DNA of 33,913 nucleotides from Candidatus Bathyarchaeota archaeon (GTDB lineage Archaea > Thermoproteota > Bathyarchaeia > Bathyarchaeales > Bathyarchaeaceae), in NCBI GenBank assembly GCA_004376295.1, contig SOJZ01000005.1:1-33913 (forward strand), read 5' to 3'. A program made the position numbers and the translations under genes. The notes beneath the pieces are model-generated. The model had not been told where the DNA came from and ran no database searches. It saw only the letters and a list, made by a program, of their open reading frames with translations. This document shows, in pieces, positions 5,641 through 24,578 of this stretch (its first letter is position 1; every line of letters begins with the position of its first letter).

Positions 5641-6159
5641 TTATGACTTCCGTGCGAATACTTTCTTCAGAGTGATGACCTCGATGCCTTCCTCTATTTT
5701 ATCGTCTTGCTCCCAACAAACGATACAGTCAACCTTATCCACCAAAGTTTTGAAGAATAAATGATACCTGTGTTTGATGATGGTAAGTTCATTCTTTTTG
5801 TCGAGTCTCTTCAGAGGTCCATAATAAGGCTGTAGATCCTTGGGCATAAGGTCTACGATTTTCCGTCCTTTTCCGTCACACAAATACCAATAGTCTCCAA
5901 TTCTCCCCCATTGCCAGTCTACAGAATGATGGTAATCACCAAAAACTCGATAATGATAAGCAAAACGACTAGTAACATATTCAAACTCTATTCTTACTAT
6001 TTTGCCTTGGCGAACTGCAAGGCAGTCGGGAAAATGAGTTTGAATTTTAAGTATTTTCTCGAAGCTCAACTCTTTGTGATATTTCTTAAAAAATTCTACA
6101 ATATCACTTTCCTTGTGTAAGATAGTTTTTTTCTGTAACCTTTTCACTTCCGTTCGCAT
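5641..6159 (-). CDS. Predicted PD-(D/E)XK-like nuclease, integrase-linked
   Basis: A 172-aa soluble protein. P44-D45, then VRIEFEY with E58 and E60, then VDCIVCWEQD (143-152) form a pattern I associate with archaeal restriction-endonuclease-like proteins (PD...EFE...D-IVCW). The usual lysine is not obvious, so activity is uncertain. Its start overlaps the end of the integrase by 16 bases, so it is translated after it in the same operon. That placement suggests a role in element maintenance, integration or host interaction. A histidine/tryptophan-rich middle (HHSVDWQW) is distinctive. Confidence 0.55.
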   Translation of the reverse strand: MRTEVKRLQKKTILHKESDIVEFFKKYHKELSFEKILKIQTHFPDCLAVRQGKIVRIEFEYVTSRFAYHYRVFGDYHHSVDWQWGRIGDYWYLCDGKGRKIVDLMPKDLQPYYGPLKRLDKKNELTIIKHRYHLFFKTLVDKVDCIVCWEQDDKIEEGIEVITLKKVFARKS

Positions 6160-7004
6160 CTGACTTTTTCAGGCTTCATCAATTCCCACAACTCTTCCAT
6201 GCTTGTTTTGGCATATCGCCTTGCCTGAGTCTTCCTGAAAGTTTCCCACCCGAAAAACCGATTAATATGTGGGTCTTTGAACCTATACTCCTGCCCAAGT
6301 TGACTTGCTCGTTGGGACCTGAACCAGTGAGGCCAAATGTGGAAGTCTTTTCTACTCATTTTCTTCCTTAACTCACTGCCTTCAAGTGCACGTTGCCCGA
6401 CTTCTCGGACAATACTGTAACCCAGCGTCTTCGTTATCCACTTGCGACTTTTTACACCCAAAAACTCTTTGGCAAAACTTTCTACGCCATCACAGTAAAA
6501 CTTGCCACCCAAATAATTCGTAGGAAACAGCCAATCGTTAGCATCTTTCACCCATTCAACCATAATTGGTGTCAAAGGCTCGAAATATGGTATAGGGAAA
6601 TCCTTCCGTATCTTCACTATCGGCTTAGTGTCGAAAGTTCGCTTAACCCATGCTTCTCGTTTGTATGAATAGTGATAAAGGTCAGAAAAAGCACCTTCAG
6701 GTTTCTCATCTCTCACATCTAAGTATTCCCTAATTTTTTCGTATCTCTTGAGCAAAGCCATGTCCTTAACTACTATACGTTCTTCCTGAAACTCAAAGTT
6801 TGACCTTCGTAACATTAAGACTTCAGAAATCCGACCACCCGTTAGAAACGCAGTAGCGACCAACGCTTTGTCTCTTTTACGAAATTTGTCTGGCAAAAAA
6901 CGATAGAGAGTATTGTCGCACTCATTTGTCAGCCGTGTGAGAAATTCCCAACCACAGAATTCTTCAACATCTTCGTCTACGGACATTCTCGTATATTTAC
7001 GCAT
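6144..7004 (-). CDS. Tyrosine recombinase (integrase), short N-terminus
   Basis: A 286-aa catalytic-domain tyrosine recombinase that would catalyse site-specific integration and excision. Visible active-site residues are R58 in GGRISEVL, H226-W-F-R229 in HWFRSQR, W253 in GWETF and Y264 in ARRYAK. Only about 45 residues precede the catalytic domain, so the usual ~100-aa SAM-like core-binding domain is reduced or missing. A roughly 100-residue stretch between the first arginine and the HxxR motif is long and basic. The ATG start follows inverted repeats that may be operators or recombinase sites. It lies near the left end of the element and probably drives its mobility. Confidence 0.88.
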   Translation of the reverse strand: MRKYTRMSVDEDVEEFCGWEFLTRLTNECDNTLYRFLPDKFRKRDKALVATAFLTGGRISEVLMLRRSNFEFQEERIVVKDMALLKRYEKIREYLDVRDEKPEGAFSDLYHYSYKREAWVKRTFDTKPIVKIRKDFPIPYFEPLTPIMVEWVKDANDWLFPTNYLGGKFYCDGVESFAKEFLGVKSRKWITKTLGYSIVREVGQRALEGSELRKKMSRKDFHIWPHWFRSQRASQLGQEYRFKDPHINRFFGWETFRKTQARRYAKTSMEELWELMKPEKVRCERK

Positions 7005-7160: not shown

Positions 7161-7231
7161 GTTCTCCAGACCCTCCATATATAAACTCTAAAACCAAGAC
7201 TATCGTGACTATTAAAAGCCGTGTATGCTAT

Positions 7232-7256
7232 GATACTGTTAAGTCTGTTGACCTAA
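7232..7256 (+). repeat. Boundary repeat copy A (25 bp)
   Basis: Starts GATACTGTTAAG and ends TGTTGACCTAA. It matches copy B (7553-7577) at 24 of 25 positions in the same orientation. Copies A and B bracket the small gene at 7314-7484. Confidence 0.8.
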
Positions 7257-7552: not shown

Positions 7553-7577
7553 GATACTGTTAAATCTGTTGACCTAA
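7553..7577 (+). repeat. Boundary repeat copy B (25 bp)
   Basis: Starts GATACTGTTAAA and ends TGTTGACCTAA, one mismatch from copy A. It lies between the DUF4177-like gene and the zinc-ribbon gene. Confidence 0.8.
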
Positions 7578-7678: not shown

Positions 7679-7873
7679 ATGCAGGAAAGCATGAAATGCC
7701 CGAGATGTGGAAGCCAATTGGAAAAAGGCAGTCTAGGTTATTCTGGCAGGACAGCTCTTCCAATTACAATCCTAAAGAAAGGCGATTTCGTTGGTGATAA
7801 AATTATTCCATTCTACTGCAAAAACTGCGGGTACATTGAGCTTTTTAGCGAAAAATTCTTGAGAAGTCGATGA
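7679..7873 (+). CDS. Small zinc-ribbon protein
   Basis: A 64-aa protein with one zinc ribbon: C-x2-C in KCPRCGSQL (residues 7 and 10) and C-x2-C in FYCKNCGYIE, about 39 residues later. The layout is that of short archaeal zinc ribbons whose members are thought to bind nucleic acid or other proteins. The ATG follows a region with a TATA-like ttatatc about 30 bases upstream. It is one of the few plus-strand genes in the element and occupies the interval between repeat copies B and C. No more specific role can be assigned. Confidence 0.7.
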   Translation: MQESMKCPRCGSQLEKGSLGYSGRTALPITILKKGDFVGDKIIPFYCKNCGYIELFSEKFLRSR

Positions 7874-7924: not shown

Positions 7925-7937
7925 ACTTAACAGTATC
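7925..7937 (-). repeat. Boundary repeat copy C, inverted and partial
   Basis: ACTTAACAGTATC, the reverse complement of the first 13 bases of copy A. It lies between the zinc-ribbon gene and the convergent 7943-8413 gene. The adjacent TATGCTAT also occurs beside copy A. Confidence 0.65.
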
Positions 7938-7942
7938 GTATG

Positions 7943-8413
7943 CTATACTCCTGTCAGGGCTTTCAGTTTGGGCACCCTCATATCCTGTCTACGGATATTC
8001 GTAAATGCACTAGTCATTTTCAGGAATAACCCTTTATTCATCCGACCGCTCGCTTTCCTCAGAATCTCGTCATAACCATTATAAATCGTAGCCATCTTAT
8101 CTCTGTAACAGCCATCACATACATCCTCAGGTTTCAGAGGCCTACCACAGAACCTGCATATTGCCGACTTTAACAAGTCCAGTTTCCGCTTTTCCTCGTC
8201 CCAGTAATCCTGTAAGTCGAAGGCTCTCACAACTTTACGACCGCGTTCATGCTTATTCACCAACGCTTCCTCGCACCAAGTATCCAAAAACCCACCGAGT
8301 CTCTCAATTACTATGTCCACAAGAGCAGGTGAAATCCCATGTGCCCCGTGACGCTTAAACTCGTTTCGAATAGCTACTCTCGCAATAAACGCTTTTTTCC
8401 CGCCTTGAACCAT
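7943..8413 (-). CDS. Histone-fold protein fused to a zinc finger
   Basis: A 156-aa protein. Residues about 8-72 line up with archaeal histones: a first helix (IARVAIRNEFKRHG), the ISPALVDIVIERLGGFLDTW long helix, and the DNA-loop/third-helix signature KHERGRKVVRAFDL, matching the 'H-x-GRKT-(I/V)-KAEDI' motif of HMf-type histones. Next comes a C4 finger, C86-x2-C89-x9-C99-x2-C102, and a basic C-terminus. It therefore probably binds DNA as a dimer and may package or regulate element DNA. A GGAG ribosome binding site precedes the ATG. The next gene upstream in the operon is a diverged paralogue with identical finger spacing. The fold assignment is by motif only. Confidence 0.65.
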   Translation of the reverse strand: MVQGGKKAFIARVAIRNEFKRHGAHGISPALVDIVIERLGGFLDTWCEEALVNKHERGRKVVRAFDLQDYWDEEKRKLDLLKSAICRFCGRPLKPEDVCDGCYRDKMATIYNGYDEILRKASGRMNKGLFLKMTSAFTNIRRQDMRVPKLKALTGV

Positions 8414-8415
8414 TT

Positions 8416-8898
8416 TTAATACTCCAACTTACTTAAGCCCCTCTGCATTTCTGCAACGATAGAGTCACGCACCCGTTTCTCATACAAAACTCTCTTTTCT
8501 TCAATCTCAACGAGCACTCGGTCGTAAAATTCGTTCAACGTTTCGTTAGGCTGTATACCTTCTAAAGCCCGTTGAAGAATTTGCACCATAATCTGTTTGT
8601 TGTCAAAAATCTGGGTGAGTTTCAGGAACACTCCAGCGTTGTAGCCTTCAGAAAACTTGTTCCACCTTTGTCGGTCAACACAAAACCTGCAAGTGTCCTC
8701 TTTCGTGAGTTTTTTCCCACAGCTTTTACAGACATACGGTTGCTGATTTAACAGGGCGGGATTCCTCAGGTATTTTTCAACATCTTTTTCAAGCCGAGCT
8801 ATGATTTGAGTTGTGAATTTGACTGAAGGCTTCCCTCTCAACCCGAGTTCCTTGTGCAACCATATAATAGTGAGTCTGGTGACAGATTGCATTCTCAC
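8416..8898 (-). CDS. Paralogous zinc-finger protein with partial histone-like N-terminus
   Basis: A 160-aa protein sharing architecture with the 7943-8413 product: an N-terminal helical segment, then a C4 finger C57-x2-C60-x9-C70-x2-C73 with the same spacing, then a common N-x-G-(V/L)-FLK-(L/M)-T motif. The N-terminus (RLTIIWLHKELG ... IIARLEKDVEKYL) could be the first two helices of a histone fold, but the GRK-x-x-x-A-x-D signature is missing. The C-terminal ~60 residues are a charged helix. It may heterodimerise with its neighbour. The GTG start overlaps the upstream stop (GTGA); an ATG six bases on is an alternative. DNA binding is inferred. Confidence 0.55.
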   Translation of the reverse strand: MRMQSVTRLTIIWLHKELGLRGKPSVKFTTQIIARLEKDVEKYLRNPALLNQQPYVCKSCGKKLTKEDTCRFCVDRQRWNKFSEGYNAGVFLKLTQIFDNKQIMVQILQRALEGIQPNETLNEFYDRVLVEIEEKRVLYEKRVRDSIVAEMQRGLSKLEY

Positions 8899-9125
8899 TC
8901 ACCTTCCATCTCACTCTCAAACAGAGCATCAATTCTCCGTCTGTAAACCTCCGCATCTAAATCCTCAAGGAAGTTATCGCAGTAAGAAAGAATTCCAGCG
9001 TAAGCGACCATGACGGAAAGTATGAGTATTTTTAACTGCAATCCGACAGATGGACTCAGAAGTAAGTTTCCCAAAACCGCCCCAACGATAAATGCTAAGA
9101 ACAAGAGGAAATTATTTAGCTTCAA
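8895..9125 (-). CDS. Small two-TM membrane protein
   Basis: A 76-aa protein with two hydrophobic helices (about 5-23 and 31-48) joined by a short loop (SPSVGLQ) and an acidic cytoplasmic tail (LDAEVYRRRIDALFESEMEGE). The TTG start has an excellent ribosome binding site (GGAGAGG), which lies inside the end of the upstream surface-protein gene; that gene's stop codon ends at the base before this start. It is part of the same operon, so a membrane or virion-envelope role next to the surface protein is plausible. I recognise no family. Confidence 0.6.
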   Translation of the reverse strand: MKLNNFLLFLAFIVGAVLGNLLLSPSVGLQLKILILSVMVAYAGILSYCDNFLEDLDAEVYRRRIDALFESEMEGE

Positions 9126-11948
9126 CTACTTCCTCTCCTTCCATTCCACCTTCGACCGCTTCTTCTTTGGCCAGTCAGCTCGCTTTCTCTTTCTCTCGGT
9201 TCTCCAAAGGCTACTTAAGTTTAGTCTTTTCAGACGCTTGAAGCTAGCACTAAATATTACGATTCCGACTATCATGACTGCACCTATAGGGGTAATGTCA
9301 AAAGCGGGGCGTGGTGGAGGGGGAGGAAGTTCAGGTGGGATACCAGGAATTACAGGGGATATCTCTTCCCATTCTTCATCTTCCACAGGGGGAACATACG
9401 GGGGAACCCAGAAACCGCCGTTACTTGGAGGAGGACCTGATGGTGGAGGTTCAGCTTCTGTGCCCCAAGTTAAAGTGAGGTCTCTTTCGCTGAAAATTAC
9501 TGGATGACTAAAAATATGATTAACGTAGGACCAATCTGGAGAACTACTGGTGTATGTGTAGTCACTCACTTTGAAAGTTTTAGGTGAACCAGACTCAACC
9601 CAGTTTTCGTTATCGAGTTTGAATTCAACAGTTCCAGATCCACTCACAGAAAGAAATTTCATAAGTTTAGCGCTCGAAAATTCCACGGTTGGAAGATCCG
9701 TGTCGTTAAGACTAAACAAGATGTAGTAGGTCGTACTGTCAAGTCTTTGGATTTTCGTGTCGATGTTCTCAGTTTGGTCGGAAGTTACTGTGATTTCTCG
9801 GGATGCATCTACCAAGTGGTTCCCCCACCAGATATTAACAGTGTGCGTCCCAAAACAAGTTGGCAGTGTTAGATAACCGTTTGAATTACTATTTTCGTCG
9901 AAACTTGTTCCATTACCTATGGTTCCTTTGAAAGCTACTTGTCTTGGAAGATTAGTTCCATCAGAGTCTCTTGCTTGAAGATATAGCGTTGGATTACCTT
10001 CATCACTGTATGCTAGATAATCGTAGTTGCTTATGCTAATGGTCAAAGTGTCATCTAAAAATCCATCATGGTTTGAATCCGTTCCTGTGTCACTGTCACC
10101 TGTTCCTGTGCTGTTTGTCCAATAGTTTCCACCAATGTAAAGACCATTACTATGTATTCGTGTTCCTATCTGCTTAGTTGTGTTCCAATAGTTAAGTTGA
10201 GGTGTTCCAGATTGGTCAATGTTAACTGTGTTGTTAAACAAATTATTGTAGAAGATGTTCTGTGTGCTACCGCTGAAAGCCATGTAGATACCAGAACCTA
10301 TGGAGTTTTGAATGATGCAATCGTAGACCGTGTTACTATCAGCATAAGAGAAGAATATGCCCCGATAGCAGTTGTTAATAGTGGAATCGCTTATTATGTT
10401 GAAATCGCAACTTGAGAGTCCTATTCCCCGGTTATTATTATTTTCTACTGTGACGTTACTAATCGTATTGTTGAAGGCATGGTCAAATTCGAATCCACGG
10501 TTGTTGCAATCACTGGCGGTTACGTTGCTGATAATATTACTGTCACTGTATTCAAGCCAAATACTGAAATCCCAACAATCGTTTGCTGTTATGTTTCCTA
10601 AAGTGTTTCCATCTGCATAACGCAAGTGGATACTACTGTCGTCCCAGCCTGAGAGAGATATGTTTTCAATTGTGATTGTAGTGATTTGACCTGGTGAGCT
10701 TCGTTCAACAAGAATTCCGTCGTCAGCTATTCCATCTGCATCTAACATATAATATTGCCCGTTCAACGTGATGTTGTTGTCTACGATTTGTATCGGCCTG
10801 TCAAAAGCGTAATCTGACGTACTTGCATTCAAATAATACGTCCAATGTTCACTCTCAGAAGTCGTATGATACTTATAGACCTCATTATCTATACGGTCTG
10901 CAATCCAGATGTAGTCATTATCCTTAGTAATACCTCGAGGATTGCCATTTCCGCTACCTGACGTATCCCAGTGGTATTCAGTGTACGTGCCATTCATATA
11001 ATATTTGTAGACTTCAGTAGTAGACCAGTCTGTAATCCAAAAGTAGGTATTATCATGGGTGATGCCACTAGCGATGACACTTCCGCTACCAGATACATCC
11101 CAGTTGTCTCCAGTATAGGTACCGTTCATATGATATATGTAAACTGCGTCGTCCGCAGCATCTGTAATCCAAAAGTAGGTCCCATTCTGAGTAATGCCAT
11201 AAGGGTCTGCGTTTCCGATACTAGCCGTATCCCAATGCTCACCAGTGTAGGTACCATTCATATGATATTTATAGACTTCTGCACCATTATTATCTGAAAT
11301 CCAAATGTAAGTGCCGTTCTGAGTGATGCCATATGGTTCAGTATTTCCACTGCCAGACGTATCCCAGTGGTCTTCGGTATAAGTACCATTCATGAAATAT
11401 GTGAAGATTTCGGTGTCATAGTAATCTGTAATCCAAAAGTAGGTCCCATTCTGAGTGGTACCACCAGCAAAGATATTTCCAGCAGCCACACTCCAATGCT
11501 CACCAGTATAAGTACCTTCCTGAGAGTACTCATTTGGATTAACCAACACAGCTGGAACAATAAAATAAGCTCCGATACCAATGTTTCGAGTTTCAGAACT
11601 GTAGGTACCATCCGCATCTGTAACGTTGAAATACCAAGGTTTTTTGGTGTCGCTTTCAGAAAGTGTGTGGTTACAAGTTATTGTTATTTCAGTGTTATTC
11701 GCATGGTTGTTTACTGTTCCAGATGCTATATCGTCTATATAGAGTGTGACATTAACGGTTGCACTAACATTACTTGTAGGTGTGCATGTAAAATTTGGTG
11801 TAGTATCAAGTGTTATAGTGTTGTTTTCTGGAGAAATAGAACTAACTGTAACAACCGCATAAACAGGTGTGATTGGCTCAGAAAAGAGGCTTCCTATTAA
11901 AAGAGAAAGGAGAATTCCTACAAAAAATAGAAAACTTCTATTCTTCAT
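9126..11948 (-). CDS. Large surface protein: Ig-like, propeller-like repeats, beta-helix, C-terminal anchor
   Basis: A 940-aa type I membrane protein. Order: Sec signal peptide (1-31); an Ig-like domain beginning SSISPENNT (about 36-120); five ~44-aa repeats (about 144-362) with NGTYTGEHWD...GIT...FWITD...VYKYHM, resembling propeller blades; a right-handed beta-helix with NosD-like spacing and N-rich turns (about 385-610); further beta domains (about 655-830); a proline-rich stalk (about 834-881); one TM helix (about 885-903); and a very basic 37-residue tail. Many N-x-S/T sequons suggest heavy glycosylation. It is probably a virion spike or cell-surface adhesin. It starts an operon with the small membrane protein and the zinc-finger pair; GGTGATTAGG precedes the ATG. 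Confidence 0.75.
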   Translation of the reverse strand: MKNRSFLFFVGILLSLLIGSLFSEPITPVYAVVTVSSISPENNTITLDTTPNFTCTPTSNVSATVNVTLYIDDIASGTVNNHANNTEITITCNHTLSESDTKKPWYFNVTDADGTYSSETRNIGIGAYFIVPAVLVNPNEYSQEGTYTGEHWSVAAGNIFAGGTTQNGTYFWITDYYDTEIFTYFMNGTYTEDHWDTSGSGNTEPYGITQNGTYIWISDNNGAEVYKYHMNGTYTGEHWDTASIGNADPYGITQNGTYFWITDAADDAVYIYHMNGTYTGDNWDVSGSGSVIASGITHDNTYFWITDWSTTEVYKYYMNGTYTEYHWDTSGSGNGNPRGITKDNDYIWIADRIDNEVYKYHTTSESEHWTYYLNASTSDYAFDRPIQIVDNNITLNGQYYMLDADGIADDGILVERSSPGQITTITIENISLSGWDDSSIHLRYADGNTLGNITANDCWDFSIWLEYSDSNIISNVTASDCNNRGFEFDHAFNNTISNVTVENNNNRGIGLSSCDFNIISDSTINNCYRGIFFSYADSNTVYDCIIQNSIGSGIYMAFSGSTQNIFYNNLFNNTVNIDQSGTPQLNYWNTTKQIGTRIHSNGLYIGGNYWTNSTGTGDSDTGTDSNHDGFLDDTLTISISNYDYLAYSDEGNPTLYLQARDSDGTNLPRQVAFKGTIGNGTSFDENSNSNGYLTLPTCFGTHTVNIWWGNHLVDASREITVTSDQTENIDTKIQRLDSTTYYILFSLNDTDLPTVEFSSAKLMKFLSVSGSGTVEFKLDNENWVESGSPKTFKVSDYTYTSSSPDWSYVNHIFSHPVIFSERDLTLTWGTEAEPPPSGPPPSNGGFWVPPYVPPVEDEEWEEISPVIPGIPPELPPPPPRPAFDITPIGAVMIVGIVIFSASFKRLKRLNLSSLWRTERKRKRADWPKKKRSKVEWKERK
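10863..11519 (-). repeat. Five in-frame ~132-bp coding repeats
   Basis: These encode the 43-44-residue NGTY...YKYHM units of the surface protein. The bases are conserved but not identical between units, so the array is moderately old and expands in register with the protein fold. Confidence 0.75.
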
Positions 11949-12041: not shown

Positions 12042-12386
12042 TCACGATCCTCTTTTGCTCCTGTGTCTGCGAGTTTGTAAGTAGAACCCTAACAAATATG
12101 GTGACCCTAGCAACAATGTGAAGAGTGGAACTCTAAATCCAGTTATGAATGTTAGACATAGAAGCATAGTCAGAAAGTAAAGTCCCAGAACCAGCTTCCA
12201 AGGCACCCCAACACAAGCCTGCCAAACACCACCGAAGAACAAGCAAACCACTTCTGGTATATGATGCCAATATAAGACAGAATTTCCAATATGGGGATTT
12301 CCACTATACGCGATGCCTTCCATTAAGATTAATGCTCCTATGGCAATTAGCAGTTCTCGGCTTTTTAGTGGGTCAAGCAACGGCAA
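12042..12386 (-). CDS. Multi-pass membrane protein of unknown function
   Basis: A 114-aa, strongly hydrophobic protein with three or four helices: about 10-28, 42-58, 63-84 and 86-103. It ends in a basic cytoplasmic tail (TRRHRSKRGS). The start is TTG, 16 bases after the LSm-like gene's stop, so the pair form an operon. It resembles a holin-sized or virion-membrane protein, but nothing in the sequence distinguishes these. The helical middle has a histidine pair (YWHHIPEV) and two cysteines. No family is recognised. Confidence 0.55.
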   Translation of the reverse strand: MPLLDPLKSRELLIAIGALILMEGIAYSGNPHIGNSVLYWHHIPEVVCLFFGGVWQACVGVPWKLVLGLYFLTMLLCLTFITGFRVPLFTLLLGSPYLLGFYLQTRRHRSKRGS

Positions 12387-12401: not shown

Positions 12402-12611
12402 TCACTCCATCCTCCTGATTATCTGCACAGCACTCCCACGTATCAGTAGTTTTCTACCGTCTTGTTCTACCAAGAGATTTCCAAGAGAGCCTTGGCTTAC
12501 AGTAGACGGTTCAACACCCAAAAGTCGCCCTTTGACGTAGTAAACGTTAGCTTTAACTTCTACAAGTTGATTTAGAAAGCATGTCTCAGTAAGCTGTTTA
12601 AAGCTCTTCAT
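12402..12611 (-). CDS. LSm (Sm-like) fold protein
   Basis: A 69-aa protein with the layout of a single Sm domain. A short N-terminal helix is followed by V-E-V-K and GRLLGVEP, corresponding to the Sm1 'V-x-V ... G-x-L-x-G-x-D' strand pair with E in place of D. After a loop comes KLLIRGSAVQII, close to the Sm2 'hhRG-x-x-V-x-x-I' signature. Sm proteins form rings that bind U-rich RNA, and archaeal members (SmAP, Hfq-like) act in RNA metabolism. The Sm1 motif is imperfect, so an RNA role is an inference. It is translated just before the membrane protein and reads away from the 12772 gene. Confidence 0.55.
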   Translation of the reverse strand: MKSFKQLTETCFLNQLVEVKANVYYVKGRLLGVEPSTVSQGSLGNLLVEQDGRKLLIRGSAVQIIRRME

Positions 12612-14467: not shown

Positions 14468-14956
14468 TTATGTTTCTATAGAGCGGTATTCAACTGGATC
14501 AATTATGCTGATGTGGGAGTTCTGATATCTGTATGGGTTCATTCTCAATAGTTCCCCGTCGTTTGTAACTATGTAACGTGCGTTCGAGGCGATTGCAGTC
14601 TCGATAAACTTAATGTCAGTGCGATCATTTGGTAAAGGGAGATGTTTGGTCTTGATTTGCTTCCTAGCTTTCCTTAATGGAGTTTCGTAGCAACGTCTGA
14701 GCTTTCCTAGTTGTCTAATATCTTCAAGTTTTCTTTGAAAGAATGTTTTCGTCATACCTGCCTTGTGAAATTTTCCAAAATACTCTTTCATAATCTGAGT
14801 GGAGAACACAATAGTATCGCATTTTTCAATTAGGTGTTCCAAAGCTTTTGAATAGGGCTCAAAATTAGCTAAAGCTCTAATTAGCGTGTTAGTGTCAACG
14901 ACTACGTTGGTATTTTTTTTCCTCAAAACTTTTCGCCCACTCATGGAACAACTCAT
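14468..14956 (-). CDS. PIN-domain ribonuclease-like protein (VapC-like fold)
   Basis: A 162-aa protein. VVVDTNTLIRA places the first acidic residue at D21, KEYF gives E58, DIKFIETAIA gives D114, and IVTNDGELL gives D133. This is the four-acid set of PIN nucleases that coordinate a metal and cut RNA. A basic middle (about 69-105) may bind the target. Its start lies inside the 3' end of the ATPase gene, overlapping by 62 bases from the first ATG, or 50 from the ATG at 14944. This implies tight translational coupling. The length fits PIN toxins or effector nucleases. Toxicity is inferred. Confidence 0.78.
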   Translation of the reverse strand: MSCSMSGRKVLRKKNTNVVVDTNTLIRALANFEPYSKALEHLIEKCDTIVFSTQIMKEYFGKFHKAGMTKTFFQRKLEDIRQLGKLRRCYETPLRKARKQIKTKHLPLPNDRTDIKFIETAIASNARYIVTNDGELLRMNPYRYQNSHISIIDPVEYRSIET

Positions 14957-16226
14957 TCTCTATATCAATGTAGCTTGGAATCCATTTTGTGACAAACCCT
15001 TGTTCATTCAATTCCAGTTTTTTTATCTCGGTTCCTTTCTTTTTCTTTTCTACATGATATATGGCGACATCATTTTTCGACAATTTCTTGGTCCTAATGA
15101 CCTTTGAAAGAGCCAAAATAAAAAATGGACTATGTGTCGTGCAGATGATTTGCTTGCCTTCGCGAATTGCCTCAGCGAATAATTCTTGAAGAAGAATCTG
15201 TGACTCTGGGTGTAAACTCATCTCAGGCTCCTCTATCAGAATCGTATCTCCAGGTTTGCTCCAGAATAATTGTGTGATCACAGTGAGTAGTTGTCGTGAC
15301 CCATAACTTGCGAAAGTCAATTCCAGAGGGGATTTCAAAATTGGATCATTGAAATCCGAACCGAGAAAGTTTTGGCCGCGCCATCCCGCCTTTATATTGC
15401 CTATTCCAAACTTTCGCGCCCATTTATCTATTTTGTTCGCCTTCTTTATGTGCGCTCGGGCACCAAAGATGGACGCCAACAGTTCAATGAGGTATTCCCC
15501 ATTTCTTCCAACCCAAGTTGGCCCTTCTCGCTCCATTCGAGGTCCAATTTCAGGACTAACTGTCACTCGCAATTCCACGTGTCCCCTTTCAGCAGAAACG
15601 AAGTACACTTTCCTCAGTTGTTGTATTATCGTCCCCATAGCTGTTCTAGCCAACCTGAGAGCCTCTGAAATCTCTGATGCTTCCTCAGATGGTGAGCCTT
15701 TGAGATTTTCGATGTTCAGGGCTTCATTTCCACGTGGAGCACCCCTACCTTTAAGAGAAGGTGGATGAATGAAACGGGACTGATATCCTCCATCTTCAAC
15801 TTTCTTGTAGGAGAAACCGACGATATGTTTCTTCCCCCTGTATAAGTGTTGACGGACTTCTTCACTTGCAGGTCGGTAATCGTAGATATAGCTGGTGGCA
15901 CGAATCATAACACCGCTGAGTGTGCGTGTGCGCGTCCCAACTTTGACCTCAAAACTGATCCACACATTCAAATCTTTCTTGTGGACTAAAGAGTCTACAG
16001 GCACAGGATAGGGGTATCTCATAAATTCTCCATATTGTAGGTTGCCATGAAAGGTGTGAGAAGTATCTGGCGGCAATCCTGTCATTTGAGCTAAGAAGGC
16101 TAGTCCTTCAAGAATATTACTTTTTCCAGAAGCGTTTGGACCAGCGAATATTGTGAGAGGCCTTAACTTTATTGCCCCACTGTCTTTGATGCTTTTGAAG
16201 TTCTTTAACTTCAGAGCTAAAATCAA
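14895..16226 (-). CDS. OLD-like AAA (ABC-type) ATPase
   Basis: A 443-aa ATPase of the AAA_15/AAA_21 (OLD/RecF-like) group. Walker A is GPNASGKSN (about 29-37), the ABC signature is SYGSRQLL, Walker B is TILIEEPEMSLHP and the switch histidine is in TTHSPFF. A long insertion between Walker A and the signature, about 225 residues, is the usual place for coiled coils in this family. No TOPRIM domain follows; the nuclease role may instead belong to the overlapping PIN gene. I chose the TTG at 16226 because AAAGGGA lies six bases upstream and MILALKLKNFKSI is a family-typical N-terminus. A TTG at 16256 is an alternative. Confidence 0.8.
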   Translation of the reverse strand: MILALKLKNFKSIKDSGAIKLRPLTIFAGPNASGKSNILEGLAFLAQMTGLPPDTSHTFHGNLQYGEFMRYPYPVPVDSLVHKKDLNVWISFEVKVGTRTRTLSGVMIRATSYIYDYRPASEEVRQHLYRGKKHIVGFSYKKVEDGGYQSRFIHPPSLKGRGAPRGNEALNIENLKGSPSEEASEISEALRLARTAMGTIIQQLRKVYFVSAERGHVELRVTVSPEIGPRMEREGPTWVGRNGEYLIELLASIFGARAHIKKANKIDKWARKFGIGNIKAGWRGQNFLGSDFNDPILKSPLELTFASYGSRQLLTVITQLFWSKPGDTILIEEPEMSLHPESQILLQELFAEAIREGKQIICTTHSPFFILALSKVIRTKKLSKNDVAIYHVEKKKKGTEIKKLELNEQGFVTKWIPSYIDIENELFHEWAKSFEEKKYQRSR

Positions 16227-16293
16227 TTTGATTCCCTTTAGAATACATACTTTCAAGTGTTTTTAAGGTTTGGTAGCTTCTGGAAGCCTGTAT

Positions 16294-17394
16294 CTACTTC
16301 ACGTAGGTATCAGTGATTTCGCTGGAAATTTCCAACTTGAAACTCCAACTCATCTCATCTCTCGGAACAAAAATTCGCATTCGATCTCCAGAAATAGAAA
16401 TACCTACTCCGTAAAGATTTGGGTTTACAACCGTGTGACGTAGCTTCAGGTATTCCACGACATCATTTATACTCGCTGAAATCGGGTCATAATCCACCTC
16501 TCTGAATATGCCACTTTGACTCAGAGAACCAACCCAACCTTTTACCGAGTCTGGGTCAAGCGGAATAATCCTACTGTCGTTGGTTAAGACTAAAGGCATG
16601 GGTCTAGTTCTCCCGTTGATATGTCTCACGGTTCTCACGATTTCAGCGTCTTCAAACCACGCTTTCGGCAGTAAATTATTAACTATAGGTGGCGTAGAAG
16701 CACCAAACCAGTAATTAGAGAAAGATGTTGGACACGCATCATACAGTAAGTCGGATGAGATGTCAGAACTGAACCATTCACCCCCAACCTCAGAAAACAG
16801 TGTGTCACCCAAGTCGGTTAGGCTAGTTATCACGTTGAAGGTAACCTTTACTTTTTCATCTGCATCAGAAGGGTTAGAAATTTCAACCAACTCGGTTCCA
16901 CGTAAACCGTAGAACTCAATTTGCTTATTTACTGTGAAGGAACTTTCACCCATCTTTTCAACATTTATCGTGAACGGTATATGCAACGTCCAAGGACTCG
17001 CTGTTCTAGTGTAGTATGTTTGTAAAAGTGGTATTCTGTCGTGTGTAGTCTGTGGTATAGTTTCGCTGAAAGGATTCGTGCTTTCAAAATAGCCGTAAGT
17101 CTGGGGATACACGAGTGCTACATCTTGATGAATGAGAGCTGAAAAGTATGGAGTTCCCATCACAACCATAACTTTTACAGTTGAATTTATAGATAGTTGT
17201 ATACCGTCGACAGAGAGATAACCGACTTGCTCAGGTTCAAGCGAGTAATATCTTTCCACCTCTGTCGAGTGCGGTGACTCGTAGATCCACCAGTCATCTA
17301 GCCACTTGCGGTCACTTTCAGAGACCGAGCCTACACCTTGGATTGTATAAGGTGACTCATACAACCGTGGAAGTTGAGAGCCAAAGGCTATCAT
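16294..17394 (-). CDS. Envelope or surface-type protein; N-terminus possibly frameshifted
   Basis: A 366-aa protein from the first in-frame ATG (17394). The in-frame sequence before that ATG encodes LKIALVFASIVILM, the start of a membrane helix, but no start codon precedes it before a TAA. A different frame from GTG 17560 supplies a charged N-terminus (MGESDYAPERKR...). One extra base near 17480-17490 would join them. The body is beta-rich with many aromatic residues and no cysteine pairs that I can place. The single TM helix and large ectodomain suggest a virion or cell-surface protein. I recognise no family. It lies upstream of the ATPase gene on the same strand. Confidence 0.5.
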   Translation of the reverse strand: MIAFGSQLPRLYESPYTIQGVGSVSESDRKWLDDWWIYESPHSTEVERYYSLEPEQVGYLSVDGIQLSINSTVKVMVVMGTPYFSALIHQDVALVYPQTYGYFESTNPFSETIPQTTHDRIPLLQTYYTRTASPWTLHIPFTINVEKMGESSFTVNKQIEFYGLRGTELVEISNPSDADEKVKVTFNVITSLTDLGDTLFSEVGGEWFSSDISSDLLYDACPTSFSNYWFGASTPPIVNNLLPKAWFEDAEIVRTVRHINGRTRPMPLVLTNDSRIIPLDPDSVKGWVGSLSQSGIFREVDYDPISASINDVVEYLKLRHTVVNPNLYGVGISISGDRMRIFVPRDEMSWSFKLEISSEITDTYVK

Positions 17395-18004: not shown

Positions 18005-18021
18005 GAAACTTTACTAACTTT
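18005..18021 (-). repeat. 17-bp inverted repeat, right copy
   Basis: The reverse complement of 17751-17767, 18 bases beyond the stop of the AAA+ ATPase gene. Confidence 0.75.
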
Positions 18022-18038
18022 AGGAAATTTATAAAACA

Positions 18039-19301
18039 CTACGGTCTCACCTTATACTCACTATCTGGGTTGAACCTATGCTCAAGGTGCCACTCATTCT
18101 TAAGCCGTCGACCTAACCGTCTACCAGTTACAGCTATTCCTCGACCCCGTAATAACTCTCCCATTTCCTTGATTTTCACCCATACTCGTCCTTGTGCATT
18201 CAATTCTGCTAACATTACTTTAATCGCATCTGTTTCTGTCATTGTCGTTCCGAAACCTAATGATTCGACAGCAAATTCCAACGTGGCTGTTTCTGTCAAT
18301 CCTTTTTCTTGCATGGTTGTTAGAACGTCGCAAGATTTCGCTATAAACTCCCTTGGAATTCGGCGACTTATATTCACCAAATAACTCAAAGCCTCATCGG
18401 TGAAAGTAGGTTTAAACACACCTTTCTGAAATTTTTCTAACCGTTTATTATAAATTTCCTTCAGTTCTCTTTCTGTAGGCAACGGAAATTGCACTTGCAA
18501 AAGTCGACCTAAGATCTCGCCTTTCCTCATAATCTTATACTGGTCGTTGGTTGCGATTAAAATTACCGTTCCACATTTTTGTAAACAGCTAACTAATTCT
18601 TCTAGCGTTCTACGACCATACATTCCTCTGTCAATAAAATCGTCTGGCACGTCTATAAGGGAAATAGAGTCTTTTAGCTTCCCGCGGAACACTCTCATAT
18701 CCAAGAACCTGTGGATAATGTGCCTTTTCATAGGGCAATCATTCTTAACATTAAATATGTCATCGAATATATCCTCCGCTGTTATCGGACTACCTGTAAC
18801 TTTGGACTTTTCACGTGCTGGCCCTACATTTATAAACTTACAACGCTCATTTCTCCAACAGTTGCGGTATTGACATCGCTTCTTCATCCACAATTCAAAG
18901 TCCAAGCCAGTAAAATTACCACTAAGCGTCATTGAAGCGTCATCCCAGAGAACGCTTTTTTCGTCGCTTACTCCGATTAATTCGAACCAAATTTCGTTGT
19001 AAATGTCGGCAAACGTTTTAGGTGCCACAAAAGCCAAAACAAGCCTGTCGTGACACATTTCATTGAGTTTATCATCTGACAGTTTAACGCTGACAGATTT
19101 ACCGCCACCTTTAGGTCCTACTAGTATGATATTGGTTTTAGAAATTGCATAATTGACAATCTTATCAACAGCCTTAGTTTCTACCAAGGGTAAAAAGCCT
19201 TGATAGAGTTCGTTCTCCACAGCGTAATCATAAACGCCAAACGGGTTTTCGTTGAGTCCGAAAGTTGGATACCACTGGGTTTCTGATTCCATAAAACTCA
19301 C
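18039..19301 (-). CDS. AAA+ ATPase with cysteine-rich insert and C-terminal winged helix
   Basis: A 420-aa protein. Walker A VGPKGGGKS (61-69); a degenerate Walker B SLIDVPDD (214-221) lacking the usual E after D; sensor-1 ILIATNDQ (N252); and a C-terminal winged helix (about 353-420). Inserted between Walker A and B are four cysteines, C143-x4-C148-x5-C154-x34-C189, which could hold a zinc or Fe-S site. The order resembles Orc1/Cdc6-type initiators, and it sits next to the iteron spacer, so a replication or partition role is plausible. The ATG overlaps the upstream gene by four bases. Activity with the altered Walker B is uncertain. Confidence 0.65.
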   Translation of the reverse strand: MSFMESETQWYPTFGLNENPFGVYDYAVENELYQGFLPLVETKAVDKIVNYAISKTNIILVGPKGGGKSVSVKLSDDKLNEMCHDRLVLAFVAPKTFADIYNEIWFELIGVSDEKSVLWDDASMTLSGNFTGLDFELWMKKRCQYRNCWRNERCKFINVGPAREKSKVTGSPITAEDIFDDIFNVKNDCPMKRHIIHRFLDMRVFRGKLKDSISLIDVPDDFIDRGMYGRRTLEELVSCLQKCGTVILIATNDQYKIMRKGEILGRLLQVQFPLPTERELKEIYNKRLEKFQKGVFKPTFTDEALSYLVNISRRIPREFIAKSCDVLTTMQEKGLTETATLEFAVESLGFGTTMTETDAIKVMLAELNAQGRVWVKIKEMGELLRGRGIAVTGRRLGRRLKNEWHLEHRFNPDSEYKVRP

Positions 19302-19555
19302 CTTTTCTTAAAGTTAGTAAAATTTGTAAAGTTAAAAGTAAAGTTATTTTGCGATAATTCATAGAGATATAGCATTTCTTCATGGAAGTTCAACGTCGAA
19401 AAGTGCTGTTTCTCCAAGTTGGATAGTTTTTGGTATTCCTCTGGCGTATAGAAAATACCGCCACGTTTAGCGACTCGTAGGATATTACAGATATGCTGGT
19501 GAATGTGAACGTTACGCTCAGTTAAGATTTTTATTAGAGTAGTTGTTTCATTCAT
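19298..19555 (-). CDS. Small hypothetical protein in the AAA+ operon
   Basis: An 85-aa protein. The N-terminal half (TTTLIKILTERNVHIHQHICNILRVAKRG) and IFYTPEEYQKL suggest a helical, possibly winged-helix fragment. The tail NNFTFNFTNFTNFKKR is a low-complexity N/F/T repeat whose DNA carries a diverged copy of the AAAGTTAGTAAA motif found in the origin-like spacer. Translation is coupled to the ATPase through a four-base overlap, and AGGAG lies about ten bases before the ATG. Function is unknown. Confidence 0.5.
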   Translation of the reverse strand: MNETTTLIKILTERNVHIHQHICNILRVAKRGGIFYTPEEYQKLSNLEKQHFSTLNFHEEMLYLYELSQNNFTFNFTNFTNFKKR

Positions 19556-20260: not shown

Positions 20261-20274
20261 ATACAGCTTTTCAG

Positions 20275-20298
20275 TAAAAATGAGGGGGGTATCTATTG
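20275..20298 (+). repeat. G-run repeat flanking the orc gene, downstream copy
   Basis: TAAAAATGAGGGG plus GGTATCTATTG. Its first 13 bases are the exact reverse complement of 21567-21579, so the two copies point at each other across the gene. This copy overlaps the gene's stop codon. Confidence 0.6.
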
Positions 20299-21561
20299 CT
20301 CACCATATCTCATCTTAAGTATGTCTTCGGCGGTCTCTTTTCCACCTAGTTTTACACCCAGATCAGTCACGCCTGAGCCTGATATTACACCGTTTTTCAA
20401 GAGCGCAATGTCAAGGTCTTTCACGTTGTAGTCGGAAAAATGCACATTTGTTCTTCCTCGTGTTTCATAACTCTTGACTTCATGATAGATTATCTTACTT
20501 CCCTCTAACCGTGACAAGTAATTCTTCATCTGCGTTTCATCCACGGGTTTGACATTGTGCCTTCTACAATTCTGCAAGAAAAATTTATGCATCTTACTTG
20601 TGGTAGCTGGCTGTTCACGTTCATGTGGGCTTCTTCTCAGAGAAACGTAACCAGCCAAAGCCAACCGTTCCATTTCGGTAAAATTTCCAAGTATTTGAGT
20701 CAAAGTTATGCCCCGCACATTCTCACGGGCTTTTTCCATGTGTGCAGAGGTCACTGTTTTCGCATCTTCTTTCATCGCTTCTTGAACCGAGGCGTAAATC
20801 AGGTTCTTACCCTTCCGCACATCGCACATTAGCCTTTCAACTGTCAAATAAGAAATTTCCCTCAGTATATCGTTAGTTATAACACCGTTTTTCAATCCTT
20901 TACCAATGACAAAATTCAGGACTCGAAACATTTCGTCTCTGCTGTAATCTTCAAAGTCTAACCTGTTACTCTTCATTCTCGATGCAAGACGCATGTCTCC
21001 AGTGTCGCCAACCCAGTCGAACACGTTGCTGATCAAAATTAAGCTAACTTGGTCTTGAATAAGGTCGTATAACAGACCAGCTTGGTTTTCTCTGGGGTTT
21101 TCGGACGTGAGTATATCAACTTCGTCAATGACTAAAACGAAAGGCACTTCTTCAATTAATGAAAGAAATTTCTTTCTCATTTCGTTTGCTGAAAGCCCTG
21201 ATATCCGAGTACGACCAAGTTGCTCATAGATTTGAGAGTAGAACTGATACGGAGTTAGAGGATACAGTTTCTTGCAGTTTACCCATGCACTCTTGAGATT
21301 CTTATATTCCCTCTTGGCCTCTTCCAAAACGCCTTTGACGACATACGTTTTGCCGATTCCTGTTGTTCCGGAAATATAAAGTTCCATCCTAACGCGTTTC
21401 TTGATTAGCTTCACAGTTTGTTTGACCACACTGTCTATTTCTTGGTCTCGACACTTTATTTCTGAAAGGTTGGCTGGAACGTGATCTACGCCGAAGATGT
21501 TCTCATCTCGGAACAGACTTTCCTTCTCTTCCACTTCTTCAAACTTTTTGAAACGGGACAT
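20293..21561 (-). CDS. Orc1/Cdc6-family initiator (AAA+)
   Basis: A 422-aa protein from the ATG at 21561; GTG at 21567 would add two residues. Residue numbers here count from that GTG. Walker A is GTTGIGKT (about 67-74), Walker B is LVIDEVD (about 145-151), sensor-1 is ILISN (S180, N181), and RLASRMKSNRLDFEDYS resembles the arginine-finger region. The C-terminal ~140 residues carry the winged-helix DNA-binding domain expected of Orc1/Cdc6. It would recognise origins and load a helicase for element replication. GAGGGG lies just before the ATG and is part of the inverted repeat that also ends the gene. It is a close fit to archaeal Orc1/Cdc6 in order and length. Confidence 0.82.
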   Translation of the reverse strand: MSRFKKFEEVEEKESLFRDENIFGVDHVPANLSEIKCRDQEIDSVVKQTVKLIKKRVRMELYISGTTGIGKTYVVKGVLEEAKREYKNLKSAWVNCKKLYPLTPYQFYSQIYEQLGRTRISGLSANEMRKKFLSLIEEVPFVLVIDEVDILTSENPRENQAGLLYDLIQDQVSLILISNVFDWVGDTGDMRLASRMKSNRLDFEDYSRDEMFRVLNFVIGKGLKNGVITNDILREISYLTVERLMCDVRKGKNLIYASVQEAMKEDAKTVTSAHMEKARENVRGITLTQILGNFTEMERLALAGYVSLRRSPHEREQPATTSKMHKFFLQNCRRHNVKPVDETQMKNYLSRLEGSKIIYHEVKSYETRGRTNVHFSDYNVKDLDIALLKNGVISGSGVTDLGVKLGGKETAEDILKMRYGEQ

Positions 21562-21566
21562 AGACA

Positions 21567-21579
21567 CCCCTCATTTTTA
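21567..21579 (-). repeat. G-run repeat flanking the orc gene, upstream copy
   Basis: CCCCTCATTTTTA on the plus strand, the inverse of 20275-20287. On the minus strand its GAGGGG also serves as the ribosome binding site of the orc gene, so any protein bound here could control initiator expression. Confidence 0.6.
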
Positions 21580-21595
21580 GTGAAAAATACCCTCT

Positions 21596-22197: not shown

Positions 22198-23442
22198 CTA
22201 TTTACTTTCAGCCTTAGACATCGTTTGTTCTTGCCATTCTAACGTCTCTTGCTGAACCTGCTGATCTAGCTGTATGGTTTCTTTCTCCACTCGCTTTCGC
22301 CACTCTTCAAGGATGTCCTCTGGCAACTTTGTGTGTTTTATAATGAATTTTCGGAACTCGTTGAGTTCCTGTCGGAGGCGACGAACCTCTTCCGTTGATG
22401 TTGTTTTTGTTGCTAAAGCTAATTTCAAGTGTAGTGGCGAGCCGCATCTCATGCAGTAGACTGCCGTATCCTCGTTCACAGTTTTACATCGAGCACAAGT
22501 GATTGGCTGAAACGTTGGCTCCATCTTTTCGTGGGGTTTTATGCCCGAAGCTCTCAGAATAGCGTCTACAGTGTCTTTGCCGTTGAGATGAACGTAAACT
22601 TTCGGCATTTTACTGTCTCTTGTCCACCCTGCAAAGTTTTTTAGACTTTGCTCGGTGATTTCAGTCGCTAACTGTGTCAGTCGCAAATGTCTTAGCCATT
22701 TTGGTGAAACCTTCTTCTTTATTCCTGCTCGCTTTGCTGCTTGGCTCAGAATACCACAGATATGATTGTATCTGATCCGTTGACCGTAAGTGTTGCGACC
22801 GAAGGATAGCCAGAGTGGTGCATCTGAGTTTTCTCTCTGTGGGTGGTCTTCCAGCCATCGTGCCAGATAGGTAGTTGTCTGGATTATCGGCAAGTTCCTA
22901 ACTCTAGTCTTAGATTCTTGGATGTAAAGGACAAAACCGTAGTCAGTGACCTCCACAGAACCCACGTTGAGACTAAGTAATTCCGCTGGTCGACATGCAG
23001 ATTCCCACAGTACAGCGATAATTGCTCTATTTCTAGAGTCTCCTGCACATTTGAGTAACTGTTTTAATTCCTCGTCGGTGAGCAACTCGTCCTTTGTGAT
23101 ATCATTTGTCGTAGCAGAAGATTTCACGGTTATCCACCTGACATTGTCAGGATATTGTCCTCTCTCTAAACCGTAGAGCCACCGATAGAAGCGTTTTAGC
23201 TGAATCTTCCTTAGTCCTCTGGTAGTCTTGGTCTCAATACTGTTTATGAATTCTCGGATTTCTTCCTTAGTTATCTCTTTGAACGGTTTTGGGTATTGTC
23301 GCGCAAACGTTTCAAGGTTAGATCGGTAATTGCTGATGGTTCCATCCGCCAAATCGTTAGCCCGCATTTCCTCTAAAAAGGAAGTGATATCCTTAGTTTG
23401 TGATTTAAGTAGTGATACATCCTTCTTTTTGAGTTTAAGCAC
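22198..23442 (-). CDS. Tyrosine recombinase with C-terminal zinc ribbon
   Basis: A 414-aa protein. The N-terminal SAM-like core-binding domain (about 10-110) precedes the catalytic domain: R151 in ESACRPAELL, K178 in ESKTRVRNLP, R251 in KWLRHLRLT (K248 where the HxxR histidine is usual), W273 in GWTRDSKMP and Y283 in VYVHL. After the catalytic domain comes a zinc ribbon, C316-x2-C319-x10-C330-x2-C333, then a coiled coil (about 345-410). The K for H change is common in archaeal recombinases. It should carry out integration or chromosome-type recombination. It lies at the right end, 116 bases before a host-type regulator, so it probably marks the element's right boundary. Confidence 0.88.
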   Translation of the reverse strand: MLKLKKKDVSLLKSQTKDITSFLEEMRANDLADGTISNYRSNLETFARQYPKPFKEITKEEIREFINSIETKTTRGLRKIQLKRFYRWLYGLERGQYPDNVRWITVKSSATTNDITKDELLTDEELKQLLKCAGDSRNRAIIAVLWESACRPAELLSLNVGSVEVTDYGFVLYIQESKTRVRNLPIIQTTTYLARWLEDHPQRENSDAPLWLSFGRNTYGQRIRYNHICGILSQAAKRAGIKKKVSPKWLRHLRLTQLATEITEQSLKNFAGWTRDSKMPKVYVHLNGKDTVDAILRASGIKPHEKMEPTFQPITCARCKTVNEDTAVYCMRCGSPLHLKLALATKTTSTEEVRRLRQELNEFRKFIIKHTKLPEDILEEWRKRVEKETIQLDQQVQQETLEWQEQTMSKAESK

Positions 23443-23558
23443 GTTTTTGCCCTCCGTTTTGATTGATAATTCAAAAGAGAGTTTATAAACTTTATTGTTG
23501 GAAGGAATATAAGCAATATTATTAAATTTCTAATTCTATAAATTATATAGGGTTCATT

Positions 23559-24578
23559 ATGGAAGCTAGAAGACTGCAACATATAAAGGGTGGAAGCTTT
23601 ACGTTATCCTTGCCCAAAGAATGGGTTGAAAGGCGAAAGCTTAAGCGGGGCGAGGAAATAGCTGTTTTCGAGGAAGAAGACGGATCGTTGAGGCTTTATC
23701 CCTTAAAAATGGAACGTGAGGAAACTGCGGAAGTTGTTTTGGCTTTAGAGAATTTTCCGGAAGTTAGGGCCCTCGAATACTGCATTGGAACATACTATAT
23801 ACAGGGTAGCAACAAAATCAGCATAACGTCGAAGAAGATGATTTCAGCAGACGTGAAAAAGAGACTGAAACTACTACGTATGGACTTGCCAGGAGTGGAA
23901 GTTGCTGAAGAAAGGTCTGATGCAATAAGTTTTCACGTAATAATTGGCCCAGCAGCCTTTTTGTTGGAATCACTTATAGAAAAGACTTCTTCCTTCTCAC
24001 TTCACTTACAAGAGGACGCTGTTAAATCCATTCTTGAGAACGATTTTCAGCTCGCCAGCGAAGTAATTGAAAGAAGTAAAGAGGCATTGAGGCATTATAG
24101 AATGACGATAAGACAGGTTGCCTTAGCAAGCTCTAGCAAAGCCATCGCGAGAAAGGTTGGGGTTAAGAACTGCCGTGAATGTGTTACTTTCGCCTTGATT
24201 GCCCGAGACTTGAACAGGCTTGTCTATCATTCCTCATCAATCGCAATGCATTTTCTCACCCTAAAGGGTAGAGCAAAGATAAATCGTGAAATGTTACGTA
24301 CAATAGAAGATATATCAGGCATCGTCCACGAGATGCAGAGAGATGCAGTCCAAGCCTTCCTGAAGAAGGATATTATGCTTGCAATAACAGTCATGGGAAA
24401 AATGACGAATGTTAAACGGAAGGAAAAAATGCTTCTAACAACCATTTTAAAGAGGGTTAAAGACGCTGACTTTGCAGTTGCTCTCAGTCATATCGCCCGC
24501 GACTTGAGGAGGATCGCTGGCTACTCAGTGGCTATAGCTGACGACGCCATGAACCGGACTTTGGCTCCAACACCCTAG
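23559..24578 (+). CDS. AbrB-PhoU phosphate-type regulator
   Basis: A 339-aa protein. An N-terminal AbrB/SpoVT swapped-hairpin DNA-binding domain (about 1-50; RLQHIKGGSFTLSLPKEWVERRKLKRGEEIAVF) precedes two PhoU-type three-helix repeats (about 115-225 and 235-330; VHEMQRDAVQAFLKKD and similar). Archaeal fusions of this type are annotated as phosphate uptake regulators, although no phosphate transport gene is nearby here. The ATG is preceded by an AT-rich TATA region (tattaaattt about 30 bases upstream) with no ribosome binding site, which fits a leaderless message. It is the first gene beyond the element. Whether it controls the benzoyl-CoA genes that follow is unknown. Confidence 0.8.
   Translation: MEARRLQHIKGGSFTLSLPKEWVERRKLKRGEEIAVFEEEDGSLRLYPLKMEREETAEVVLALENFPEVRALEYCIGTYYIQGSNKISITSKKMISADVKKRLKLLRMDLPGVEVAEERSDAISFHVIIGPAAFLLESLIEKTSSFSLHLQEDAVKSILENDFQLASEVIERSKEALRHYRMTIRQVALASSSKAIARKVGVKNCRECVTFALIARDLNRLVYHSSSIAMHFLTLKGRAKINREMLRTIEDISGIVHEMQRDAVQAFLKKDIMLAITVMGKMTNVKRKEKMLLTTILKRVKDADFAVALSHIARDLRRIAGYSVAIADDAMNRTLAPTP

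Follow-up and report, generated by a model that had tools for sequence, protein, structure and literature searches.

A probable divergent histone fold joined to a zinc-finger module, encoded by an integrated element of a bathyarchaeal genome

Two adjacent small genes in a contig of Candidatus Bathyarchaeota raise the question of whether an archaeal mobile element encodes a protein in which a histone fold is joined to a zinc finger, and of how the product of the neighbouring gene, which has the same finger spacing, is related to it. The genes lie in the window, i.e. the whole stretch of 33,913 nucleotides analysed here, and their products are termed P1 and P2. Both open reading frames, which an earlier sequence-only reading of this DNA had singled out, are real at the coordinates of Table 1, and both lie on the minus strand. 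P1 is an orphan gene product, most likely a divergent histone fold joined to a zinc-finger module. The overall explanation favoured here, with a probability of roughly 0.5, is that in P1 the element encodes an architectural protein that binds DNA, and that P2 shares the finger-helix module of P1.

Table 1. Positions of the genes, domains and element boundaries in the window
Feature	Position	Strand	Description
Integrated element	about 44-23518		23.5 kb; 12-bp terminal direct repeat ATATAAGCAATA at 44-55 and 23507-23518
Integrase	22198-23442	minus	Pfam
Orc1/Cdc6	20293-21567	minus	Pfam
69-aa protein gene	12402-12611	minus	First gene of the P1/P2 operon
114-aa membrane protein gene	12042-12386	minus	Operon gene
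940-aa protein gene	9126-11948	minus	Operon gene; signal/TM-anchored beta-helix surface protein (NosD, E 4e-31)
76-aa two-TM protein gene	8895-9125	minus	Operon gene
P2 gene	8416-8898	minus	Basic protein, pI 9.49; 160 aa from GTG
P2 C4 finger	8680-8730	minus	C57-x2-C60-x9-C70-x2-C73
P2 post-finger segment	8599-8640	minus	N-AG-V-FLK-L-T-QI-F-D-N; common to P1
P1 gene	7943-8413	minus	156-aa basic protein, pI 9.65
P1 histone-fold region	8183-8380	minus	Residues 12-77 (alpha1 13-21, alpha2 29-56, alpha3 64-77)
P1 C4 finger	8108-8158	minus	C86-x2-C89-x9-C99-x2-C102
P1 post-finger segment	7997-8038	minus	Residues 126-139, N-KG-L-FLK-M-T-SA-F-T-N; common to P2

The element is delimited by the end of another contig of the same genome. 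The final 55 bp of this contig (C22, positions 11304-11358) are identical to positions 1-55 of the window and end exactly with ATATAAGCAATA; since this sequence recurs at the other side, the element is placed as in Table 1, with the 12 bp as a candidate attachment core. In a sister species of the same genus (genome G029), genes for MoaD-like and PhoU-like proteins are neighbours, and this is the empty site. In the genome of the window, the PhoU-like gene starts at 23559, beside the integrase, and the MoaD-like gene is found 58 bp from the end of C22. The features of an integrated mobile element are found together: there is an integrase, there are terminal direct repeats, and the site is empty in a relative. 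The assembly break between C22 and the contig of the window is such that the 55-bp overlap ends at the last base of the candidate core, as would be expected from a sample in which the integrated form occurs together with empty or circular ones.

In addition to the genes for the integrase and Orc1/Cdc6, the element encodes a TrmB-like regulator. Two replication-type ATPase genes are each flanked almost exactly by an inverted repeat of their own, 22-23 bp in length and 91% complementary; the repeat is at 18006-18027 and 19304-19325 for the gene at 18039-19301, and at 20268-20290 and 21564-21586 for the Orc1/Cdc6 gene. At 14468-16256, an OLD/AriA/NsnB-like AAA ATPase gene (PADLOC NsnB, E 5e-40; AriA, 9e-28) overlaps a PIN-domain gene, and this pair is a candidate defence cassette within the element. 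A 366-aa protein without an assigned family (16294-17394) has a distant relative in a genome from another family of the same order (L024/L025, G160:C8; 25% over 421 aligned positions), with no further genes of this element alongside. Searches for a related element with this protein and with the AAA protein turned up this distant relative alone.

The genes for P1 and P2 come last in a tight operon on the minus strand, whose start is near 12611. The P1 gene begins 2 bases past the end of the P2 gene with an ATG, and a GGAG is found 8 nt upstream, within the last codons of P2. The true start of P2 is likely the ATG at 8892, which lies behind GGTGAG and gives a protein of 158 amino acids. The 940-aa surface protein of the operon has about five 132-bp repeats toward its N-terminus, a NosD beta-helix and a C-terminal transmembrane segment with a basic tail, and might serve the element as a spike or an adhesin. 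The 69-aa protein appears Sm-like by eye, with LLIRGSAVQII near its end, and has no Pfam or PDB matches. Downstream of the operon, the sequence GATACTGTTAAGT is present three times (7222-7256, 7553-7577 and 7925-7945; 0.04 expected): two copies are direct and have CTGTTGACCTAA after them, and the third is inverted and lies just downstream of P1. The copies flank a small zinc-ribbon gene (7679-7873) and adjoin a second tyrosine-recombinase-like gene (6144-7004); they are possible recombinase sites, or they might form a small invertible or mobile unit.

The predicted layout of P1 is a divergent histone fold, followed by the C4 finger and a helical C-terminus. The finger spacing of x2, x9, x2, read earlier as common to the two proteins, is indeed present in both, and the likeness extends into a common module in which the finger is followed by N-x-G-x-FLK-x-T-x2-F-x-N. 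None of 5,000 shuffles gave as good a module score, even with the cysteines fixed, and the same result (0 of 5,000) was obtained for the part after the finger alone. The similarity of the fingers is real and reflects the common descent of a C-terminal module. The P1 finger has a weak match to DZR_2 in Pfam that is below the cut-off. Matches of the P2 finger to Stc1 and RecR, also below their cut-offs and overlapping the cysteine finger, were set aside, and PDB matches of P2 to arrays of C2H2 fingers were rejected as repeat-driven.

The N-termini of the two proteins show no likeness: 4,073 of 5,000 shuffles equalled the score obtained with the 54-residue N-terminus of P2. This N-terminus gives no signal with histone models, and the GRK-x5-D stretch found in P1 is absent from P2. 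It would therefore seem to be either unrelated to that of P1 or no longer recognisable against it, and the proposal that it is a decayed histone finds no footing here. A related question is that of origin. Duplication followed by divergence had also been proposed, and a whole-gene duplication of a histone-finger ancestor, with later decay of the histone half of P2, is compatible with the other readings discussed here and agrees with the adjacency of the genes, the common finger and following segment, and the similar size and charge of the products. We regard this origin as doubtful, as nothing in the N-terminus of P2 recalls P1 or a histone, and module exchange explains the common part equally well. 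What stands of the proposal is the shared finger and segment, and a module shared on two unrelated N-termini fits these as well as a decayed histone copy does.

The case for a histone fold in P1 starts from sequence comparisons. The GRK-x-x-x-A-x-D signature reported for P1 is present as G58-R59-K60-V-V-R-A64-F-D66 (GRKVVRAFD, residues 58-66). Of RxTxxxD, a typical but non-universal histone motif, R59 and D66 are kept and T is replaced by V61, which gives RxVxxxD. In a single-sequence phmmer search, the archaeal DNA-bridging histone HmvA (8bdk) is the sole PDB match of the N-terminal 80 residues (E 0.018), and it is also the best PDB match of the whole protein. The alignment has the expected histone register and a single 1-residue gap at its extreme end, and the match stops at residue 76 of P1. 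The reversed P1 sequence yielded zero PDB matches. The score of P1 against the HmvA stretch is 16.5 bits, compared with 10.3 for the best free shuffle and 12.0 for the best within-helix shuffle (about 20,000 of each), and none of these about 40,000 shuffles reaches the P1 score; since HmvA was selected for being the best PDB match, the E value of 0.018 is the fair figure for this comparison.

Other models give a weaker histone signal, yet one in agreement. With a diverse histone HMM from which HmvA was left out, none of 10,000 shuffles equalled P1, and a few unrelated open reading frames scored about equally; with a narrow HMM of host histones, about 1.3% of shuffles were as good as P1; and hhalign gave a P of no better than 0.013. 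Eight viral histones align to residues 12-78 of P1 (67 residues) without internal gaps, with the G-R-K and the D seven positions after R kept. Pfam and NCBIfam showed no histone match for P1 up to E 10, PF00808 included, and PHROGs, NCBIfam and PADLOC returned nothing for it; the canonical histone of the host (encoded on contig C21), unlike P1, is detected by a curated model at 2.4e-14. Taken at the level of sequence, residues 12-76 of P1 resemble an archaeal histone more than chance would allow.

The histone fold has the form helix-loop-helix-loop-helix, and the description of it as helix-strand-helix-strand-helix in the sequence-only reading was in error. Structure prediction, advised there as a check, gave two different answers. 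AlphaFold2 with P1 alone was uninformative (pLDDT 53.5, no Foldseek match); its low-confidence helices at 4-22, 29-55 and 67-88 are at positions where the histone helices would fall. When guided by an alignment of the eight single-domain histones from viral contigs, the model reaches a pLDDT of 94.5 and has the three-helix fold with a short alpha1, the helices being 9, 28 and 14 residues long; Foldseek then returns histones, with H4 at the top (TM 0.84) and HmvA within the first 40. As the guiding alignment consists of histones, this model indicates compatibility with the fold and is not proof of it. It should be pointed out that full-length alignments of P1 with histones are gapped in alpha1 and alpha3, and that the modelled version was trimmed, a choice that favours the histone register.

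A true histone fold in P1 is nevertheless considered quite probable. The reading of P1 as a histone-like protein with a C4 finger is supported by the match to HmvA, the shuffles and the guided model; the curated models are silent on it. The N-terminus could instead be some other small all-helical domain with a coincidental likeness to histones, which would make P1 and P2 two orphan zinc-finger proteins with a common finger-helix module. The missing Pfam and NCBIfam histone match, the low-confidence helical bundle of the unguided model and an operon partner that has no histone signal would suit such a domain, but we think it unlikely given that HmvA is the sole match, in the right register and with the key motif, that helix and loop lengths are preserved, and that the shuffle and reversal controls came out as they did.

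Assuming that P1 has a histone fold, one of its closest counterparts is a histone with a structured C-terminal extension. Like P1, HmvA (MJ1647 of the Methanococcales) has a structured C-terminal module after its histone fold. In HmvA this consists of two tetramerising helices (PMC10516927), whereas P1 goes on after the histone match with a C4 finger and has the longer tail, and the Methanococcales-type two-helix module is not found. Both proteins are without the L1 arginine of HMfB; P1 differs from HmvA in having V for T in RxTxxxD. HmvA-type histones are given as solely from Methanococcales in the main text of a survey that sorts prokaryotic histones into 17 classes; prokaryotic histones that carry additional domains form an established group (PMC11390915).

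As described in that text, ZZ histones also combine a zinc finger and a histone fold in a single prokaryotic chain; they are mostly proteobacterial, and have an N-terminal ZZ domain (C4 and C2H2 sites) and a C-terminal histone with a truncated alpha3 (PMC11390915). In P1 the order is reversed, the single C4 site is short and, in the guided model, alpha3 has its full length of 14 residues; the features of ZZ histones are absent. Coiled-coil and phage histones are like P1 in layout, with the histone fold at the N-terminus and a helical oligomerisation module, putative in P1, at the C-terminus. Phage histones are encoded by viruses, have no RxTxxxD and have a truncated alpha3, and for neither group does the text describe a zinc finger, unlike what is found in P1 (PMC11390915). 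Since P1 has the features of neither the Methanococcales, the ZZ nor the phage histones, it is best called a variant of prokaryotic histone-fold proteins, pending structure. The main text of a 2026 survey of archaeal histones makes no mention of zinc (PMC13260811).

Histones were also found on archaeal plasmids (Methanocaldococcus, with M. jannaschii NC_001732, Methanosphaera and Natrinema) and in viral contigs (IMG/VR loci L057-L064). These are encoded by mobile or viral DNA as is P1, but they are canonical single-domain proteins of about 66-73 amino acids with an intact HAGRKT. The view that a protein such as P1 is unusual in an archaeal mobile element is therefore right as regards a histone joined to a finger, and wrong as regards histones in general.

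Searches of 163 genomes from the order, 257 from the class and a 398-genome sample of the phylum gave no convincing relatives of P1, and neither did those of phages, plasmids, viral contigs and GTDB contigs; for P2 the outcome was the same in these 163 genomes, in viral contigs and in phages. All matches obtained were marginal (E 2e-4 or worse per genome), and the P1 matches that were inspected are unrelated proteins with a helix or a finger in common. The module common to P1 and P2 was absent from viral and GTDB contigs. The pattern-based scans of viral contigs for P1, P2 and the module, and of GTDB contigs for P1 and the module, demand near-exact short stretches, and distant relatives would escape them. 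In the phylum sample the module gave only marginal scores, from matches that are short and cysteine-driven or interrupted by stop codons. A counterpoint to the histone-fold reading is that no relatives showing conservation of either module were found.

What might P1 do for the element? The N-terminal archaeal-type histone fold would dimerise and bind DNA via its alpha1 face, and both P1 and P2 are predicted to be probable DNA-binding proteins. The preserved R59-D66 pair, K60, K20 and the basic charge of P1 are consistent with a histone dimer that binds DNA. The DNA contacts of HMfB at R10, R19 and T54 presumably correspond to N17, G26 and V61 in P1; three canonical contacts are apparently lost, and DNA binding may be weak or altered. 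The C4 finger, putatively stabilised by zinc, and the helices that follow may form an oligomerisation or partner-binding module. As P2 has the same finger-helix module and belongs to the same operon, the two proteins probably bind one another or one common target. MJ1647/HmvA forms DNA bridges, for which it needs its tetramer-forming C-terminal module, and in vitro it blocks promoters (PMC10516927). By analogy, the finger-helix module might oligomerise P1, possibly joining P2 to it, and P1 would compact or bridge the element DNA, or silence element promoters, in the manner of HmvA with its own tetramerisation module. We give such an architectural role of P1 about even odds.

A histone-fold P1 might also act as a regulator that represses the element by binding a specific sequence or a promoter, its finger touching DNA or the transcription machinery; it is a single small basic protein, the element has the TrmB-like regulator and Orc1/Cdc6 besides, and a histone variant is able to block promoters in vitro, but we judge this improbable, as the end of an operon beside surface and membrane proteins seems an unusual seat for a regulator and no operator was identified. 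The architectural reading can be extended. P1 and P2 might form a two-component, element-specific chromatin system, in which a histone-fold and a non-histone subunit are joined by the common zinc-finger module and package or bridge the element DNA, perhaps in virus-like particles with the surface proteins of the same operon. This extension is a speculative one, to which we give a low probability. If true, none of the classes set out in the main text of the survey with 17 classes would cover this histone architecture (PMC11390915).

If the reading of P1 as a histone-fold protein with a zinc-finger module is right, it adds a histone fold and C4 finger-helix architecture that was not found in the main texts of two recent surveys, one of prokaryotic and one of archaeal histones (PMC11390915; PMC13260811), and this architecture sits on a mobile element and is invisible to curated models. 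P1 and P2 would then be a small, testable pair for the question of how histone folds gain oligomerisation modules. It would also suggest that viruses and plasmids carry histone variants whose divergence puts them out of reach of standard searches.
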